DNA of 64,000 nucleotides from an uncultured Bacteroidota bacterium. Its GTDB lineage: Bacteria; Bacteroidota; Bacteroidia; 2-12-FULL-35-15. The stretch spans positions 186,001 to 250,000 of the forward strand of contig CAINDA010000035.1 of NCBI GenBank assembly GCA_903847205.1, written 5' to 3'. How positions within the stretch are numbered: position 1 is the first letter of the stretch; every line of letters starts with the position of its first letter. The notes under the pieces were generated by a model. The model saw nothing but the letters and a program-made list of their open reading frames with translations, made no database searches and was not told where the DNA came from. The position numbers and the translations under genes were made by a program. Below are positions 57-63,251 of this stretch, one piece after another.

Positions 57-203
57 ATCGCCCAAACTTCTCAAACGTTTTGCAAAAGAGGGCAATCACT
101 TTGCCAAATTGGACAACCGCTTTGCTATAGAGGACAATTGTTTTGCCAAATTGGGAAATCACTTTGCAAAAAAGATACATCAGGTTGCCGAAAAAAACAA
201 GAG
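57..203. repeat. Degenerate 21-bp tandem repeat array (7 units)
   Basis: Seven consecutive 21-bp units (starts at 57, 78, 99, 120, 141, 162 and 183) share a TTTGCnAAA...GGnCAA core with point differences. 21 bp is seven codons. On the plus strand the register stays open from about 46 to the stop near 214 and would give a heptad with Cys at a fixed place, but it has no start codon. The minus-strand register is broken by stops. I read it as a non-coding or decayed minisatellite upstream of the propeller gene. Confidence 0.8.
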
Positions 204-2981: not shown

Positions 2982-5471
2982 TTACTTTAGTAATTCAAGC
3001 GCTTCCTGAATGGAGATATATTCGTTATTAAACAGCGCAACAACAAAAACATCTCCAAGATTATACATTTGTTTAATATCATTTTTGTACTCCACAGCAT
3101 CTTTGTAATCATTGAAAGAGCCAACCACATAACGGGTTAAACCGCTTTTTGTTTTTTCACCGTTGAGGTCTTTCAATTTTGAAAACACAGCAAGTTTATC
3201 ATCAGGCGGCTGATTTTTAAAAACACCAAGCTGTACTTTAAATTTTACAAGCTTTTTATTTACAGTATTTTCTGCAATATTTTCTTTGGTTTCAACAGCA
3301 TCTTCTTTTTTAGCAAACGTAGCGCCTGCCTCTTCTAAAGTAATTCTTTTTCCATTTTTGTAGGCTGCAATAAATGCCCCGGGATAACCATTTAACAGCA
3401 TGTCAGTTTTATGTTTAGCTGCCGCGTCAAAAGAAGTAAATGAACCTGTCATATATTTATACAAGCCGTCCTCTGTTTTTATTTCAATTAGATCATTCAC
3501 GTTTTTAAATACACTTTTAGAAAGCCGTTTTTTATACGCTCCCAATTGAACACGCAGCACTGTACCCTCAATGTTTATGGTATTATTCAAAACATTCTTA
3601 TTGCTTGCCGCATTGACTGAATTCTTGTTTGCGTCGCGGATAGCATTCTTGTTTGCATCCCTTATAGCTTTCTTGTCTGCACTTTTATCCACATTCTTAT
3701 TTGTATTCATGTCCGCATTTTTCGGATTTTTATCAGCAATAAGAGCTCCGTCATTTTTCTTAACATCTCTATTAGCCGCAACAACCGCATTGCCGGTATT
3801 ATCATCATTTCGATGTGCCTCATGATACTTACCATATTGTTTATAGACGACTTTAGCATCTGTTAAACCTGCCTTAATCAATTGCTGTCTGCGGTCTTCT
3901 GCATCCTGGTAATCACTAAATTTACCAGCAGTATAAATGGTTGCTGAATCACTTGTATTAGTGCTTGAAATATCGCTGATGCTCAGGAATTTGGTCATTA
4001 AATTTTGGGGCAGTCCTTTTTTATAAGTTCCTAAATCAACACTGTACTCTCTTTGCTTTTCTCTTTTAACTTCTGGATCCCGGGTTTCAACAGCGGCGTA
4101 TTCACCGGTAGAATCATTATAAAAATTAGCCTGGTAAGCAATCAGCGAATCATTCATCTGCACTCCTTTCGAATTCACAAACGCTCCTTTGGGAGAATTT
4201 TTTTCATCGTCTTTGTAATTAGGAACGCCGTCCTCATCATCATCAAGCGGACAGCCTTTTGCATCAACTGGCACTCCTGATGGTGTACCCGGACACTGGT
4301 CATCAAAATCAAGCACCCCATCTTTGTCTTCATCGCCAGTTTCAAGAGCCATGAAATCAACATCTTTATAATTTTCTTCGTTATGACGAGCTTTATCCTT
4401 TTTCTTGGCTTTCTTTTTATTTGTACCAAAGTTGTAATGAACAGAACAAGAGGTCATCATAAATTTATCATTCTGGCTGTTTCCTACTCTGTTTCCGACA
4501 CTTTTGGCCGTAACACCGTCAATATAGTCAGTAAAGGTAAAATGCATCGTGGTGCCAATTTTAAAATCCCAAAAATTATTTAATTTAAAAATTGCTCCAA
4601 TACCCACAGGTATTGCCCACGAGCGTTCAGGATATTTGCCGAAGCCATCAAGGTTGGTCTCCCTAATATCAGATTCATAGGTATAATCGCGATGGATAAC
4701 CACTGCATTCGCCGCATCTCCCGCACTTTGATCAATGTTTCTGATGGAGCCATCCGTCCAGTAGAAATATTTATTGCCGTATTTATCATACATATCTGTT
4801 TTCGAAAGAAATTCAAATGATTCTATTCCTAACGAAATAAAAGGACTTGCGGTTCTTTTTGCAGGAAGAAAATTATCGAAATTATATTCCAGGTTAAGTC
4901 CGCCAGCACGTATCTGAGATTCAAAATTTAGATTACGGCTCCCATTTGGACCAGCATTTCTCTCTTCTGCGCCCAACTTTCCAAATAAGACATAAAAATT
5001 TAATTTCAGGTAATCAGTCAAGCCTTGGGATACGCTTAAATCATAGGCTATCCGGCTGACCATAGGCGCCTGAAAGTGCTTATTATACAAATCGCCGTAG
5101 AATGAAAACATGCCTGTACCAAAGCCAACAGTGGGTGTAGGAATAAATTCTGCAGAAGGTTTTACTGTATCAGCAGGATTGGTTGGTTTAGGAGAAGATC
5201 CAACGGAAGAAAGACTGCTGTCGGATGCTGAAGGACTATTAGTTTTGATGGCAGGGGCTGTAACAGAAATACTGCTGTCTACTCCTTTTGAGCTTTTAAT
5301 TTTTTTAACAGGAGCACCGGATGAAGCGCTTGAATCAGTTGGGGTACTGTTAATTTTTGAAACGGGAACAACAGAAGCGCTGCTATCGGGAGCTGCACTT
5401 TTGTTTACTTGTGCATACGAAAAACAACTTAATAATACGAAAAATAAAACACCCTTTAATTTGTGAATCAT
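2982..5471 (-). CDS. Outer-membrane barrel protein with TSP3 repeats and three SPOR-like domains
   Basis: About 829 residues from the ATG at 5471. An upstream in-frame GTG at 5495 precedes the signal peptide and is not preferred. The order is: signal peptide ending SYAQ, a Ser/Ala/Pro-rich linker to about residue 100, then a beta-barrel-like region (about 105-350) rich in alternating aromatic strands. Thrombospondin type 3 calcium-binding repeats (DKDGVLDFDDQCPGTP, then DDEDGVPNYKD) lie near 375-420. Three SPOR-like segments follow (about 470-540, 640-715 and 750-829), with an Asn/Lys/Asp-rich spacer before the second. SPOR domains bind peptidoglycan strands lacking stem peptides. An outer-membrane protein tethered to cell wall is the simplest reading. 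It is paralogous to the gene at 7070-8374 in its barrel part. Confidence 0.75.
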   Translation of the reverse strand: MIHKLKGVLFFVLLSCFSYAQVNKSAAPDSSASVVPVSKINSTPTDSSASSGAPVKKIKSSKGVDSSISVTAPAIKTNSPSASDSSLSSVGSSPKPTNPADTVKPSAEFIPTPTVGFGTGMFSFYGDLYNKHFQAPMVSRIAYDLSVSQGLTDYLKLNFYVLFGKLGAEERNAGPNGSRNLNFESQIRAGGLNLEYNFDNFLPAKRTASPFISLGIESFEFLSKTDMYDKYGNKYFYWTDGSIRNIDQSAGDAANAVVIHRDYTYESDIRETNLDGFGKYPERSWAIPVGIGAIFKLNNFWDFKIGTTMHFTFTDYIDGVTAKSVGNRVGNSQNDKFMMTSCSVHYNFGTNKKKAKKKDKARHNEENYKDVDFMALETGDEDKDGVLDFDDQCPGTPSGVPVDAKGCPLDDDEDGVPNYKDDEKNSPKGAFVNSKGVQMNDSLIAYQANFYNDSTGEYAAVETRDPEVKREKQREYSVDLGTYKKGLPQNLMTKFLSISDISSTNTSDSATIYTAGKFSDYQDAEDRRQQLIKAGLTDAKVVYKQYGKYHEAHRNDDNTGNAVVAANRDVKKNDGALIADKNPKNADMNTNKNVDKSADKKAIRDANKNAIRDANKNSVNAASNKNVLNNTINIEGTVLRVQLGAYKKRLSKSVFKNVNDLIEIKTEDGLYKYMTGSFTSFDAAAKHKTDMLLNGYPGAFIAAYKNGKRITLEEAGATFAKKEDAVETKENIAENTVNKKLVKFKVQLGVFKNQPPDDKLAVFSKLKDLNGEKTKSGLTRYVVGSFNDYKDAVEYKNDIKQMYNLGDVFVVALFNNEYISIQEALELLK

Positions 5472-20172: not shown

Positions 20173-20820
20173 CTATTTAATATCTATTTTATAAATTTCC
20201 AAACGCCCCCTACAACTGAAAGAATTAAGAATGTATAATTCTTTCATCCCATCTTTCTCAATATCATATTCAAAGAATGTTAAGTTGCCAATATCTTTGA
20301 AATAAATCGATTTGCCATTTCTTGTAATTTTAAATGGATTTCTACCTGTATCATCACATCCTAATGATGTAGGAGAAATTTTCATTTTTCCTATTTGAGT
20401 TGCAAAATACTTTTTTGTTGTATCATAACTGATATAAAAGTCTCCAGATTTGAGTGTTGTAGTTATTCGATGGGTCTTGAAACATGTACTCTTAATTTCT
20501 TTTTTGCAAATTGTATCCTTCTTTTGTTCAATATGCAAGCCTTCGCGTTGAATTGTAAAAAGTACGCCACCAGTATTAACTGTTAAATTATTATTATTAT
20601 TATTACAAATATGTGTTCCCATTTCCAAAGGATAATTAAAATATCTTATGCCACTTGCAGAATCTCGTGTATCAAATAGCCGATATATTTTTAAATCCGT
20701 ATTGTTTATTATTGAAGTATCATTTTGTATTAATGATTGTTTAATAAATCGCGGATTGAATTTTGTCTGTCCCAAAGAAAGCAATGGAAAGAATAAACAA
20801 AGAGTTAATTTCGTCTTCAT
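20173..20820 (-). CDS. Exported hypothetical protein
   Basis: 215 residues from the ATG at 20820. The frame extends 13 codons upstream, but the signal peptide MKTKLTLCLFFPLLSLGQ begins here. The mature part is polar with an N-rich segment and two Cys near CKKEIKSTC. It ends in a segment typical of exported proteins carrying VCBS/FG-GAP-like repeats (FFEYDIEKDGMKELYILNSF: D-x-E-K-D-G-x-x-E-L), though only one such unit is present. Function unknown. Confidence 0.6.
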   Translation of the reverse strand: MKTKLTLCLFFPLLSLGQTKFNPRFIKQSLIQNDTSIINNTDLKIYRLFDTRDSASGIRYFNYPLEMGTHICNNNNNNLTVNTGGVLFTIQREGLHIEQKKDTICKKEIKSTCFKTHRITTTLKSGDFYISYDTTKKYFATQIGKMKISPTSLGCDDTGRNPFKITRNGKSIYFKDIGNLTFFEYDIEKDGMKELYILNSFSCRGRLEIYKIDIK

Positions 20821-20989
20821 AATAATTATTGGAAGAGGTTTGAACCGCGAAACTCGCATATCTTATCCTTCAATACTAAATCTACGCACCTATTTCTTTA
20901 TAAACCTGTCTTCCCACATATCTAAATTAAAAAAAAAGACGAAGCAATTGCCGCATTTCTCAAATAATATTTAGTTGTTTTATGGATGT

Positions 20990-21241
20990 GGCTTGAAAAT
21001 TTGTCATCCAAGCTTGGAAAATCTTTGAACTAGCTTGGAAAATTCTATTTCTGAATAGGTTTTTCATTTTCTTATATAAGAAAATCATTTTCCTTTACAG
21101 GTTTTTCATTTTCTTATACAAGAAAATCATTTTCCTTTACAAGTTTTTCATTTTCTTATACAAGAAAATCATTTTCCTTTACAGGTTTTTCATTTTCTTA
21201 TACAAGAAAATCATTTTCCTGTTCAGGTTTGTTCCTGAAAC
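20990..21241. repeat. 21-bp-periodic tandem array (12 units; central 4 x 42 bp)
   Basis: Twelve units of exactly 21 bp run from 20990 to 21241. The inner part is four near-identical 42-bp dimers at 21057, 21099, 21141 and 21183. Each dimer carries ATTTTCTT-N4-AAGAAAAT, which is a perfect 20-bp palindrome in the first copy. The plus-strand register through the four dimers is open and would spell a Phe/Ile/Leu/Tyr/Lys heptad; it is interrupted on the left and has no start codon. There are no spacers, so this is not CRISPR. Confidence 0.85.
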
Positions 21242-21277
21242 TCAAAAATTTATGGGAAAATAGACTGATCAATAATG

Positions 21278-21316
21278 GCAAAACCTGTCAGTTTTTAAAA
21301 ACATGACAGGTTTGCA
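21278..21316. other. Hairpin (10-bp perfect stem, extendable)
   Basis: AAACCTGTCA at 21281-21290 pairs with TGACAGGTTT at 21304-21313 around a 13-nt loop. With one bulge the stem extends to GCA/TGC. No poly-T tail follows directly. It may be part of a repeat element or a structured 3' region of the export operon. Confidence 0.5.
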
Positions 21317-21353
21317 TAATAAATAGGATTGAATCGGGGATTTTAAAAGAAGA

Positions 21354-21382
21354 TTAGTATAAAAACACTTTTTTTATACTAA
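21354..21382 (-). terminator. Candidate terminator of the export operon
   Basis: 12-bp arms (TTAGTATAAAAA and complement) around a 5-nt loop, lying 5 bp beyond the stop of the ATPase gene on the minus strand. The stem is AT-rich, so strength is uncertain. Confidence 0.5.
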
Positions 21383-21386
21383 AATA

Positions 21387-22070
21387 TCATTGATTTAATA
21401 TTTTACCATCCGAAAGTTCGATGGTACGGTCGGAAGCCGCGGCGAAATCATTATCATGGGTTACTGCAATTATTGTCTGCCCGAAATCCCTGGCAACCTG
21501 CTGAAAAATATCAAAAACAATGCGTGAATTTTTGCTGTCTAAATTTCCGGTTGGTTCATCACACATAATTATTTTGGGAGAATTAATAAGTGCGCGGGCA
21601 ATTGAAACGCGCTGCTGCTGTCCGCCCGAAAGCTTTGAGGCAGGTTTTAAAGCCTGATCCTCAATGCCCAGCATTTTCAATTTTTCATACGCATGCTGTT
21701 CTACTTCGGCATGTGAATATTTGCCTAATTTAAGAGCAGGAATCATAATATTTTTTAAACAGCTGAATTCGGGAAGCAGATAATGGAACTGAAAAACAAA
21801 ACCAATATTTTTATTCCGGATAGCGGCTAAATTATTCAAACTCTGCCCGGTTATTTTTTCATCATCAATAATTAATCGGCCTTCGTAATCGGTATCCATA
21901 GTTGAAAGAATATACAGCAGCGTTGATTTTCCGCTGCCCGATTTACCAACCAGGGTAAGGAATTCGCCTTTATAGGCTTCAAACGAAATATTATCCAATA
22001 CTTTAAATTCAATAGGATCGTAAAAATATTTACCTATGCCCTCTGTTTTGAGAATTACTTTCTTTTCCAT
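21387..22070 (-). CDS. ABC transporter ATP-binding protein (LolD/MacB type)
   Basis: A 227-residue nucleotide-binding subunit. Walker A is GKSGSGKST near 42-50. The Q-loop region reads [15 protein letters not shown], the LolD/MacB pattern FQ-x-x-x-LL-x-E. The signature is [15 protein letters not shown], Walker B is [12 protein letters not shown] and the switch is VTHD. It powers a FtsX/MacB-fold permease and overlaps that permease gene by 1 bp, so the two are translationally coupled. With the adaptor and TolC genes upstream it forms a tripartite export system, last in the transcript. The substrate (lipid, lipoprotein, peptide or drug) cannot be read. Confidence 0.93.
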
Positions 22071-61067: not shown

Positions 61068-63251
61068 ATGAAAAACAATATAAAATATTTTACATTTTTT
61101 TTTCTTATTTTCTGCAGCATTTTATTAAATGCTGAGCAGCCTAAAAAGGCTGTATCAAACAATGCTGTTGATTCCCTTATTACAATCCTAAAAAAAAGCA
61201 AAGAAGATACAGCCAAAGTAAACACTCAAAATACTTTGAGCAGGCTGTATATAGCCATCAGCTGCTATGAGCAGGCGATACAGTGCAGCGAATCAGCCAG
61301 GCTGCAATCAGAAAAATTAAATTTTAAAAAAGGAGAAGGCGATGCAAATAACCTTATTGCGATAGGGTATTGGTTTCAGGGTAATTATGAAAAATCATTA
61401 ACTAATTATTTAAAAGCATTAAAATTAAGAGAGGAGATCGGCGATAAAAAAGGAATCGTAAATTCTTACCGGAACATTGCTATTATTTATGAGAACCAGG
61501 GTAACAATGCCAAAGCACTGGACAATCACAACAAGGCTTTGAAAATAATGGAAGAAATAGGTGATAAACCAGGGATAGCACTTTCTTACCGCGATATAGG
61601 ATATGTGTATATGGTTGAAGGCAAATATGCAGAGGCCAATATCAATAATTTAAAATCATTAAATATTATGGAAGAGGCCGGCGATAAAAATGGTATTGCC
61701 GATTCGTATGTAAATATCGGCAATGTTTACCTGGCTCAGGATAACTATGAAAAGGCTTTATTCAATCTGCTGAAAGCATTAAAAATTAAAGAACAGTTTT
61801 CGAAAAAAGAAGAGCTCCCTAATTTTTATGATAATATCACAGATATTTATATGAAGCAGGGAGATGCTGCAGCCTCTAAAAAGTTTTCGCCTTATTTTTA
61901 TCGGAATGCATTGGATTATCAAATGAAATCCTTAAAAATTAAAGAGCAAAAGTCCGACAGCCGCGGCATGGCATATTCATATAATACAATCGGAACTATT
62001 TATATGAAACAAAATAAATTTGATGAAGCGGGCCTGTACCTGAATAAAGCTTTGTACTTATTTAATGAAATAAAAAGCAAGGACGGGATGAAGGATACCT
62101 ACTCGTCATTAACTGATTTAAGCGAGACTAAAGGCGATTATGCTCAGGCATGTATGTATTATAAATTATATTCGGATTTAAAAGATACTATGCTGAATGA
62201 ACATTCGAGCAAACAGCTTTCGGATATGAGCTCTAAATATGAATCTGAAAAAAAAGAAAGGGATATTGATCTTTTAACAAAAGATAAAACCCTGCAGGAA
62301 GCAGAAGTAAATAAACAAAAACTTATCAGGAATACTTTTATCGGCGGACTGGCATTGGCTGTGCTGCTTGCCTTTTTGCTGATTAACCGTTTCAGCACAA
62401 GGCAGAAATTAAACACTGTGCTGAGTGCAGCAAACAATGAATTAACTCAAAAAAATGTACTCATTGAAAAGCAGAAAGAAAAAATTATAGCCAGCATAAA
62501 TTATGCGCAGCTTATTCAGCAGAGTATTTTAATGGAGGAAAGTGAAATTCAAAAACACCTTCCCGATTCTTTCGTTTATTTTCAGCCCAAAGATATTGTG
62601 AGCGGCGATTTTTACTGGTTCTCTAAAATAGATGATAAAATTATTATAGCTGCCATTGACTGCACCGGACATGGCGTGCCCGGCGCTTTCATGAGCATGA
62701 TAGGCAACACACTGCTCAACCAGATTGTTAATGAAAAACACATTTGCAAACCTTCGGAAATACTCCGGCATTTAAACCTGGGGGTATATGAAGCCCTGCA
62801 TCAGCAAAAGGACGGCGCCTTATCGGAAGATGGGATGGATACCGCTTTATGCTGTATAGATTATAAAAACAATGAACTGCAGTATGCCGGTCAAAACCCA
62901 TTATATATACTCAGGGGTTCAGAGATTGAAATTATAAAAGGAGATATACGCGGTATTGGCGGAGGAGGGTTGATTGCAAAAATTCATGATCCTTTAACAA
63001 GGGAATTTACAAATCATATTATTCCTATACAAAAAGGAACGTCTATTTATCTTTCTACCGACGGGTATTTAGATCAGTTTGGAGGCGGCGAGAGAAAAAA
63101 ATTCGGGACTCAGAAGTTAAAAGAAACTTTATTAAATAATCAGCATTTAAATATGCAGCAGCAAAAAGAGCTTATTGCATCGGCACATAATAACTGGAAA
63201 GGAAATGTACAGCAGATTGATGATATTTTGGTGATTGGGATTAGATTTTAG
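61068..63251 (+). CDS. TPR sensor with SpoIIE-type PP2C phosphatase (copy 2)
   Basis: 727 residues, same plan as copy 1: signal/anchor, TPR array (about 60-360, more and more regular units such as YEKSLTNYLKALKLREEIGD), coiled linker, transmembrane helix near 420-440, phosphatase domain about 485-727. VSGDFYWF, DCTGHGVPGAFMS and STDGYLDQFGG are present, so catalytic metal sites look complete. The cytoplasmic half is much closer between copies than the TPR half. The two proteins likely sense different ligands but share output. Probably a tandem duplicate. Confidence 0.9.
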   Translation: MKNNIKYFTFFFLIFCSILLNAEQPKKAVSNNAVDSLITILKKSKEDTAKVNTQNTLSRLYIAISCYEQAIQCSESARLQSEKLNFKKGEGDANNLIAIGYWFQGNYEKSLTNYLKALKLREEIGDKKGIVNSYRNIAIIYENQGNNAKALDNHNKALKIMEEIGDKPGIALSYRDIGYVYMVEGKYAEANINNLKSLNIMEEAGDKNGIADSYVNIGNVYLAQDNYEKALFNLLKALKIKEQFSKKEELPNFYDNITDIYMKQGDAAASKKFSPYFYRNALDYQMKSLKIKEQKSDSRGMAYSYNTIGTIYMKQNKFDEAGLYLNKALYLFNEIKSKDGMKDTYSSLTDLSETKGDYAQACMYYKLYSDLKDTMLNEHSSKQLSDMSSKYESEKKERDIDLLTKDKTLQEAEVNKQKLIRNTFIGGLALAVLLAFLLINRFSTRQKLNTVLSAANNELTQKNVLIEKQKEKIIASINYAQLIQQSILMEESEIQKHLPDSFVYFQPKDIVSGDFYWFSKIDDKIIIAAIDCTGHGVPGAFMSMIGNTLLNQIVNEKHICKPSEILRHLNLGVYEALHQQKDGALSEDGMDTALCCIDYKNNELQYAGQNPLYILRGSEIEIIKGDIRGIGGGGLIAKIHDPLTREFTNHIIPIQKGTSIYLSTDGYLDQFGGGERKKFGTQKLKETLLNNQHLNMQQQKELIASAHNNWKGNVQQIDDILVIGIRF

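Follow-up and report, generated by a model that had tools for sequence, protein, structure and literature searches.

A stray tandem array in a Bacteroidota genome hints at an undescribed protein-DNA system linked to three uncharacterised gene families

Intergenic tandem repeats in bacteria are often dismissed as noise. We analysed one such array in a 64,000-nucleotide stretch (the window; contig C35:186001-250000) of the 5.49-Mb genome of an uncultured Bacteroidota bacterium. The window array, at about positions 20990 to 21241, is of a kind with arrays that lie just upstream of genes of three uncharacterised protein families (here A, B and C), and the comparison hints that it is a stray copy of this array type and that the arrays belong to an undescribed protein-DNA system. 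Some described systems resemble it in part. The iterons beside plasmid rep genes are direct repeats of about 20 bp, phased at two helical turns and adjacent to the gene of their binding protein, and the 21-bp arrays upstream of B and C genes likewise place repeats of about two turns beside a gene. Unlike iterons, the arrays described here occupy many chromosomal loci, each with a unit of its own, and the encoded proteins carry no Rep domain (no Rep initiator family is among the Pfam or NCBIfam matches of the linked proteins). Type III toxin-antitoxin loci also have tandem repeats directly before a protein gene, whereas the arrays here lack strand-specific structure, seldom have a terminator in the gap to the gene and precede proteins without toxin homology. 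Centromeric satellites with co-evolving proteins share the fixed period, the rapid sequence turnover and the homogenised units, yet the bacterial arrays measure about 200 bp and lie at many loci, each beside a gene or orphaned.

Direct repeats of the heptamer TAACTGA occur in Beggiatoaceae, Cyanobacteria and some Bacteroidetes and have been proposed as a post-transcriptional site (PMC4679880). Like the present arrays, they are intergenic, often precede start codons and form long arrays in some Bacteroidetes; unlike them, they have a single 7-bp unit wherever found, as opposed to units of at least 21 bp and varied sequence, and the passages of that paper on the repeats describe no linked protein families. 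Intergenic tandem repeats are also on record for planctomycete genomes (PMC9426551). The REP and REPIN elements associated with RAYT transposases are palindromic intergenic repeats tied to a protein; they are, however, dispersed, whereas the arrays here are tandem at one period, and Y1_Tnp is found in 29 of 36 genomes of the genus regardless of arrays. Nor are these CRISPR arrays, whose repeats alternate with unique spacers, as the units here run head-to-tail and spacer-free. Among open-access literature, judged by titles and the beginnings of abstracts, we found no description of such gene-linked arrays.

Three protein families and the arrays upstream of their genes

The window array has two sister arrays in the genome, on contigs C13 (86% identical) and C37 (83%), and the C13 sister lies ~156 bp before a gene for a 208-aa protein. 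Genes starting beside arrays gave three protein families without Pfam or NCBIfam assignment: family A (~320 aa), with homologues encoded by L049, L074 and L112 that are 39-40% identical to the first; family B (~208 aa), whose founder gene is the one next to the C13 sister array; and family C (~230 aa; founder L111). Within the genus (E 0.001), A is present in 9 of 36 genomes and B and C in 8 each, the set of genomes being the same except for G021 and the absences of B and C being based on single-protein searches. The common distribution of families and arrays may partly be the signal of one clade. A common origin of the three families was rejected (hhalign probabilities of only 1.5-2.4%). The N-terminal parts of the proteins look helical by eye. 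The C-terminus of family B appears fn3-like: two distant homologues from outside the genus (L245 and L246) score 32.6 and 33.0 bits against a Pfam fn3 cut-off of 25, and none of the 30 genus members scores above it. Against known structures, B matched only weakly to fn3 or antibody-like ones (best E 0.024), A gave nothing convincing (best E 0.049) and C nothing at E 0.1.

None of 10 proteins matched a PADLOC anti-phage defence model at E 0.1, and Y1_Tnp was absent from family A and B members and from the C proteins scanned. No homologues were found in viral contigs by six single-protein scans, in phages with one protein as query, or in 72,556 plasmids by tblastn with one homologue, L247. Of 10 proteins compared with PHROGs, L247 matches, through its C-terminal region, a family of major tail proteins (E 1.5e-6), and weak matches below E 0.05 link three others to families of unknown function.

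We scored a gene as linked when an array called by Tandem Repeats Finder (TRF) ended at most 500 bp upstream. Such arrays precede 37 of the 44 A genes that could be evaluated, 26 of 29 B genes and 22 of 26 C genes. Five of these genes were queries, chosen for lying beside arrays; once they are set aside, the counts are 34/41, 25/28 and 21/25. The A count leaves out 6 of 54 matches (short fragments or second pieces of a gene), and all 30 B and all 26 C matches were used. Four A genes and one B gene, with less than 250 bp of upstream sequence and no array, were not evaluable. An A fragment on contig C58 was counted as linked and omitted from the dyad, strand, turnover, gap and promoter analyses, and one gene of genome G201 (L289) was left uncounted because of inconsistent arrays on its two strands. 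Downstream arrays were found at only 4 of 78 A and B genes, every one of another period.

A TRF-free scan for the best-matching lag gave a similar picture. Upstream, lag 42 or 41 won at 37 of 44 A genes, and lags 21, 42 or 63 at 23 of 28 B and 22 of 25 C genes, with lag 63 winning at one more A gene and lag 41 at one C gene; downstream, those lags won at none of 44 A, 29 B and 25 C genes. Thirteen of the 16 genes without a TRF array (two of the 16 outside the genus) still had the family lag on top, at some weakly (33-37 of 63 matches, where shuffles of the window's intergenic stretch average 32.6); of the remaining three, two are gene fragments and one has 304 bp of sequence upstream. Among ordinary genes, upstream arrays were found at 17 of 447 (3.8%) in the window's own genome, 5 of 55 in G024, and 4 of 40 in G034 (one of whose stretches had been retrieved on account of its array); ten genomes that lack the families gave 1 of 494. 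We regard the presence of phased arrays at A, B and C genes as close to certain.

Arrays of this kind extend beyond these genes. In 738 kb of the own genome, TRF called 29 non-coding arrays that measure 80 bp or more, with a period of 21 in 12, 42 in four and 20 in two, and none with a period of 19, 22 or 23. Their units mostly differ, and a few share sequence with another sampled locus. The genome-wide process at period 21 proposed in the initial annotation is supported by 16 of the 29 arrays, and its check for an excess at lag 21 came out in its favour. Stretches from 19 genomes of the genus yielded, besides these 16, eight period-21/42 arrays in 93 kb of G024 and two in 60 kb of G034; 56 kb of G022 and 20 kb of G032 yielded no such array. 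The 14 sampled genomes without families A, B and C had a single such array in 1.04 Mb.

Period, symmetry and sequence turnover

The adjoining protein family foretells the period, symmetry and place of an array and not its sequence. In the genus, family A arrays have a period of 42 bp (32 arrays) or 41 bp (four), family B arrays of 21 bp (25; two called at 42), and family C arrays of 21 bp in 19 of 23 cases. Mean array lengths are 247, 215 and 181 bp for A, B and C, and median gaps to the start codon 98, 110 and 126 nt; indels are absent from 62 of 79 arrays. In GC content the arrays (0.39-0.46) resemble the genes (0.41-0.42) more closely than the gap (0.22-0.27). Terminator-like hairpins follow 49 of 79 genes at the 3' side (2.6 in shuffles) and lie in the gap between array and gene at 6 of 79 (0.8 in shuffles).

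Dyad symmetry exceeds that of unit-permuted controls in family A (score 4.77 versus 3.62, p 3e-9; 23 of 36 arrays at p 0.05) and in family B (4.34 versus 3.43, p 1e-5; 11 of 25), although some same-family arrays share descent, so that these p values are somewhat too small. The general array sample has a dyad excess in 12 of 29. Half of the family A arrays (18 of 36; 4.2 expected, p 2e-8) have a further dyad that does not overlap the first and is offset from it by half the period, to within 1 bp; the unit as a whole is dyad-symmetric in 22 of 36. In both families these patterns fit dyads that recur about every 21 bp along the same face of the helix. Fold energy showed no strand bias (A 17/36, p 0.42; B 14/25, p 0.23), nor did GT against AC mismatches (191 versus 186), which favours a site in DNA over a hairpin in RNA. 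The TANNTTTG promoter motif was absent between array and gene at all 41 loci with gaps under 120 bp and present at 10 of 38 with longer gaps (three on the other strand); control genes had it in 117 of 431 cases (56 on the other strand), and the array loci showed no overall excess.

Arrays can change in sequence more quickly than the proteins beside them. The same array is kept beside proteins that are 96% and 85% alike, the latter pair (L198 and L208) being orthologues in different species. Beyond the genus, we searched an even draw of 395 Bacteroidota genomes, scoring at most seven or five candidates per genome; the B profile matched in seven genomes and the A profile in four, the own genome included. 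A 21/42-bp array lies upstream of six of the eight B-profile genes outside the genus, in one case as a 70-bp stretch 427 bp off; TRF found none upstream of those in G288 and G068. A distant A homologue in G074 has no array either.

What the arrays may be

We tentatively favour the reading of the arrays as a helically phased protein-binding platform of fast-changing sequence. Each locus would consist of ~180-250 bp of tandem dyad-symmetric sites, presented on one DNA face by the 21-bp spacing of two helical turns, and of a gene just downstream for an uncharacterised protein, with a fn3-like C-terminus in family B. The encoded protein, or a partner that it recruits, would bind cooperatively, its dimers forming a helically phased lattice along the array, with one dyad per 21 bp in B (putatively also in C) and two alternating dyads per 42 bp in A. 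Spacing and symmetry would be maintained while the letters turn over and homogenise within each array, as they do in centromeric satellites.

We put this reading at somewhat under even because no DNA-binding domain is recognised in the A, B or C proteins, their charge is only mildly positive (net +1.6 to +5.4), array sequence turns over rapidly and such genes are missing beside most arrays. Further results weigh against it as well. An A, B or C gene adjoins only 4 of the 16 sampled period-21/42 arrays of the own genome (L049, L074, L054:14065 and L052), two of eight in G024 and neither of the two in G034. Arrays lacking such a neighbour may be orphans or partners of families not yet named; those of G034 both stand next to unassigned genes of ~300 aa. 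Unrelated arrays stand beside proteins that are 77%, 76% and 75% alike, and across all pairs the similarity of arrays shows a weak correlation with that of proteins in A (0.17, p 0.002) and in C (0.21, p 0.012), but none in B. In family B, neither a second dyad at the half period (10 of 25, 9.1 expected) nor whole-unit symmetry (3 of 25) is supported. The period rule has exceptions in the 21-bp arrays at the A fragment on C58 and upstream of a distant A homologue in G215. Of four distant A homologues in G201, one is preceded by a 42-bp array and two are followed by 41/42-bp arrays; the latter two (L284, 239 aa; L291, 234 aa) are shorter than the genus members. Finally, the arrays of six extra B matches in G000, which stand outside the B count, are more distant, ending within 500 bp upstream in four, at 518 bp in one and missing in one.

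A broader and more speculative extension, which we rate at about one chance in three, is that these are bacterial gene-linked satellites, in which protein families without discernible relation each have a private, fast-changing array 5' of the gene. The spacing and dyad lattice (21 or 42 bp by family) would be conserved in place of the sequence, protein and array would form self-specific pairs, in parallel to co-evolving pairs of satellite and centromere protein, and orphan arrays, the window array among them, would spread these pairs over the chromosome.

Function-free satellites are the strongest alternative, albeit an unlikely one: slippage or expansion with a preferred period would merely tend to strike the DNA before these genes. 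That most sampled arrays adjoin other genes, that units are homogenised and that many orphan arrays match no gene-linked array all agree with such an origin. It is harder to reconcile with a period that varies with the protein family, with A dyads that alternate 21 bp apart, with conservation in other families of the phylum and with the near absence of arrays from samples of family-negative genomes. Less probable again is a recombination platform, on which the arrays would be sites for exchanging genes or arrays between loci in a cassette-like shuffling. Array turnover beside similar proteins, the gene-free sister arrays and the palindromes would be expected from it, whereas the orthologues L198 and L208 have kept the same array across species, and RVT_1 and Y1_Tnp, the only two recombination families checked, do not track arrays.

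We give about as little credit, if not less, to a scheme like that of type III toxin-antitoxin loci, in which the array would be transcribed into a repeat RNA restraining the protein encoded behind it. The order of repeats and gene matches, and the lack of the TANNTTTG motif from the short gaps means that the array may be transcribed. Against this stand the missing strand bias and the scarcity of gap hairpins; moreover, no toxin family, ToxN-like ones included, exceeded its Pfam cut-off in the linked proteins, and 17 loci gave no Rfam match. The weakest alternative, heptad-coding DNA or relics of coiled-coil genes, would account for the open frames in 16 of 21 period-21/42 arrays examined and for L055:5981-6092, one of 12 period-21 arrays, which probably does encode KKEVKAE units, yet it is highly improbable given stops in all six frames in the other five arrays, the existence of 41-bp arrays, the dyad symmetry and the constant position ahead of genes. 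The heptad-codon periodicity suggested in the initial annotation was accordingly not upheld, open frames at this rate being weak evidence for a seven-codon unit; the window array itself has two open plus-strand frames, of 83 and 88 codons, with no ATG ahead of it.

The predictability of array period, symmetry and place gives a handle on these protein families, which are unassigned and present in several families of Bacteroidota, and provides ~85 natural array-gene pairs in which to study the joint change of a DNA site and its partner.

The window array, its neighbours and other arrays

The features of the window that bear on the array are as follows.

20173..20859, minus strand: 228-aa gene that reads away from the array and is outside families A, B and C
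21006..21047, no strand: two decayed 21-bp units with AGCTTGGAAAAT in common (units at 21006 and 21027, 14/21 identical)
21057..21230, no strand: core array of four 42-bp dimers, or 8 clean 21-bp units (TRF period 42, 4.1 copies, 96% matches, score 320, without indels)
21066..21085, no strand: palindrome of dimer 1, ATTTTCTTATATAAGAAAAT, perfect over 20 bp
21108..21127, no strand: palindrome of dimer 2, perfect 8-bp arms around ATAC
21150..21169, no strand: palindrome of dimer 3, perfect 8-bp arms around ATAC
21192..21211, no strand: palindrome of dimer 4, perfect 8-bp arms around ATAC
21216..21241, no strand: right edge of the array, with CAGGTTTGTTC, also present in the C13 sister array
21387..22070, minus strand: ABC-transporter ATPase gene, named from its sequence, which ends before the array
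72..171, no strand: second, unrelated 21/42-bp array, also without an adjoining A, B or C gene

At period 21, TRF called the array from 21064 to 21218 (7.4 copies, 69% matches, score 163). Its best 63-base stretch has 62 matches at lag 42 and 44 at lag 21, where the best lag in 1000 mononucleotide shuffles of the intergenic stretch (52 lags) never exceeded 41. Every dimer carries ATTTTCTT-N4-AAGAAAAT, and the four near-identical dimers of the initial annotation, with a palindrome perfect in the first copy, are thus as described; their 96% identity fits the recent expansion that it proposed, or homogenisation. Each dimer joins two related 21-mers, AGGTTTTTCATTTTCTTATAC and AAGAAAATCATTTTCCTTTAC; a block change between them renders the latter complementary to the arm before it and looks like a template-switch correction of a near-palindrome. 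The array is real and was placed correctly; its supposed 12 units were an overcount, since the outer units are decayed (the one at 20985 matches its neighbour at 10/21 and the one at 21216 matches the unit two before it at 15/21), and 8 clean units plus 3-4 weak ones are a fairer count. The surrounding stretch, given as 566 bp, is indeed non-coding and measures 527 bp (20860-21386), or 569 bp with the left gene's inner ATG start near 20817. The other array of the window, annotated at 57-203, is likewise real (TRF 72-171 at period 42, 79-171 at period 21).

At the C13 locus the B gene starts to the left of the array on the minus strand, the place taken in the window by the 228-aa gene of another kind. 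We found no A, B or C gene beside the window array and no significant gene remnant beside either window array or C37 (best E 0.2), which makes the window array an orphan. It is a site related to the C13 family B locus and may be bound in trans or may be a relic. By the neighbouring permease, the nearest named records, 80-83% identical, are metagenome-assembled genomes under the label Bacteroidetes bacterium (palsa_966, palsa_969 and one more). The orthologous transporter locus of the four nearest relatives (L016-L019) has no array, and the downstream neighbourhoods differ there.

Other repeats in the window are an inverted repeat, AAACCTGTC/GACAGGTTT, at 21281-21313 between the ATPase gene and the array, and two short tandem repeats, one at 3621-3681 (24 bp x 2.5) and one at 61382-61422 (21 bp x 2.0), the latter adjoining a stretch that resembles the genome's 120-bp coding repeats. 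The orientation of arrays showed no significant bias (0 of 9-10 convergent, ~1 expected). As trans factors, RVT_1 was rejected on its occurrence in 17 of 36 genomes and its absence from the array-bearing G024, G034 and G032, and Y1_Tnp on its occurrence with or without arrays.

Additional arrays differ in period or in neighbour. On contig C35, L051:2926-3424 holds 25 copies of the strongly palindromic 20-bp unit AAAAGCTGAGCTTTTGGCTA between divergent genes, and on C44 a 736-bp array of 21-bp units (L073:10380-11115) adjoins a gene with an AbiJ_NTD4 domain (E 8e-27). Arrays on C13 and C65 with periods of 62, 16, 31 and 62 bp (L054:9103-9363, L054:11769-12010, L054:12652-12736 and L078:7478-7768) have related units around GGTCGTAA and form a further dispersed array family of different period. 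In G034, two 21-bp arrays (L088:1535-1788 and L089:14604-14788) lie directly 5' of unassigned genes of 303 and 300 aa, perhaps another array-linked family. On contig C1 of G024, a 159-aa gene at the place of a weak Y1_Tnp match (G024:C1:151-348, E 9.7e-4) starts ~110 bp from a 21-bp array (L109:588-862).
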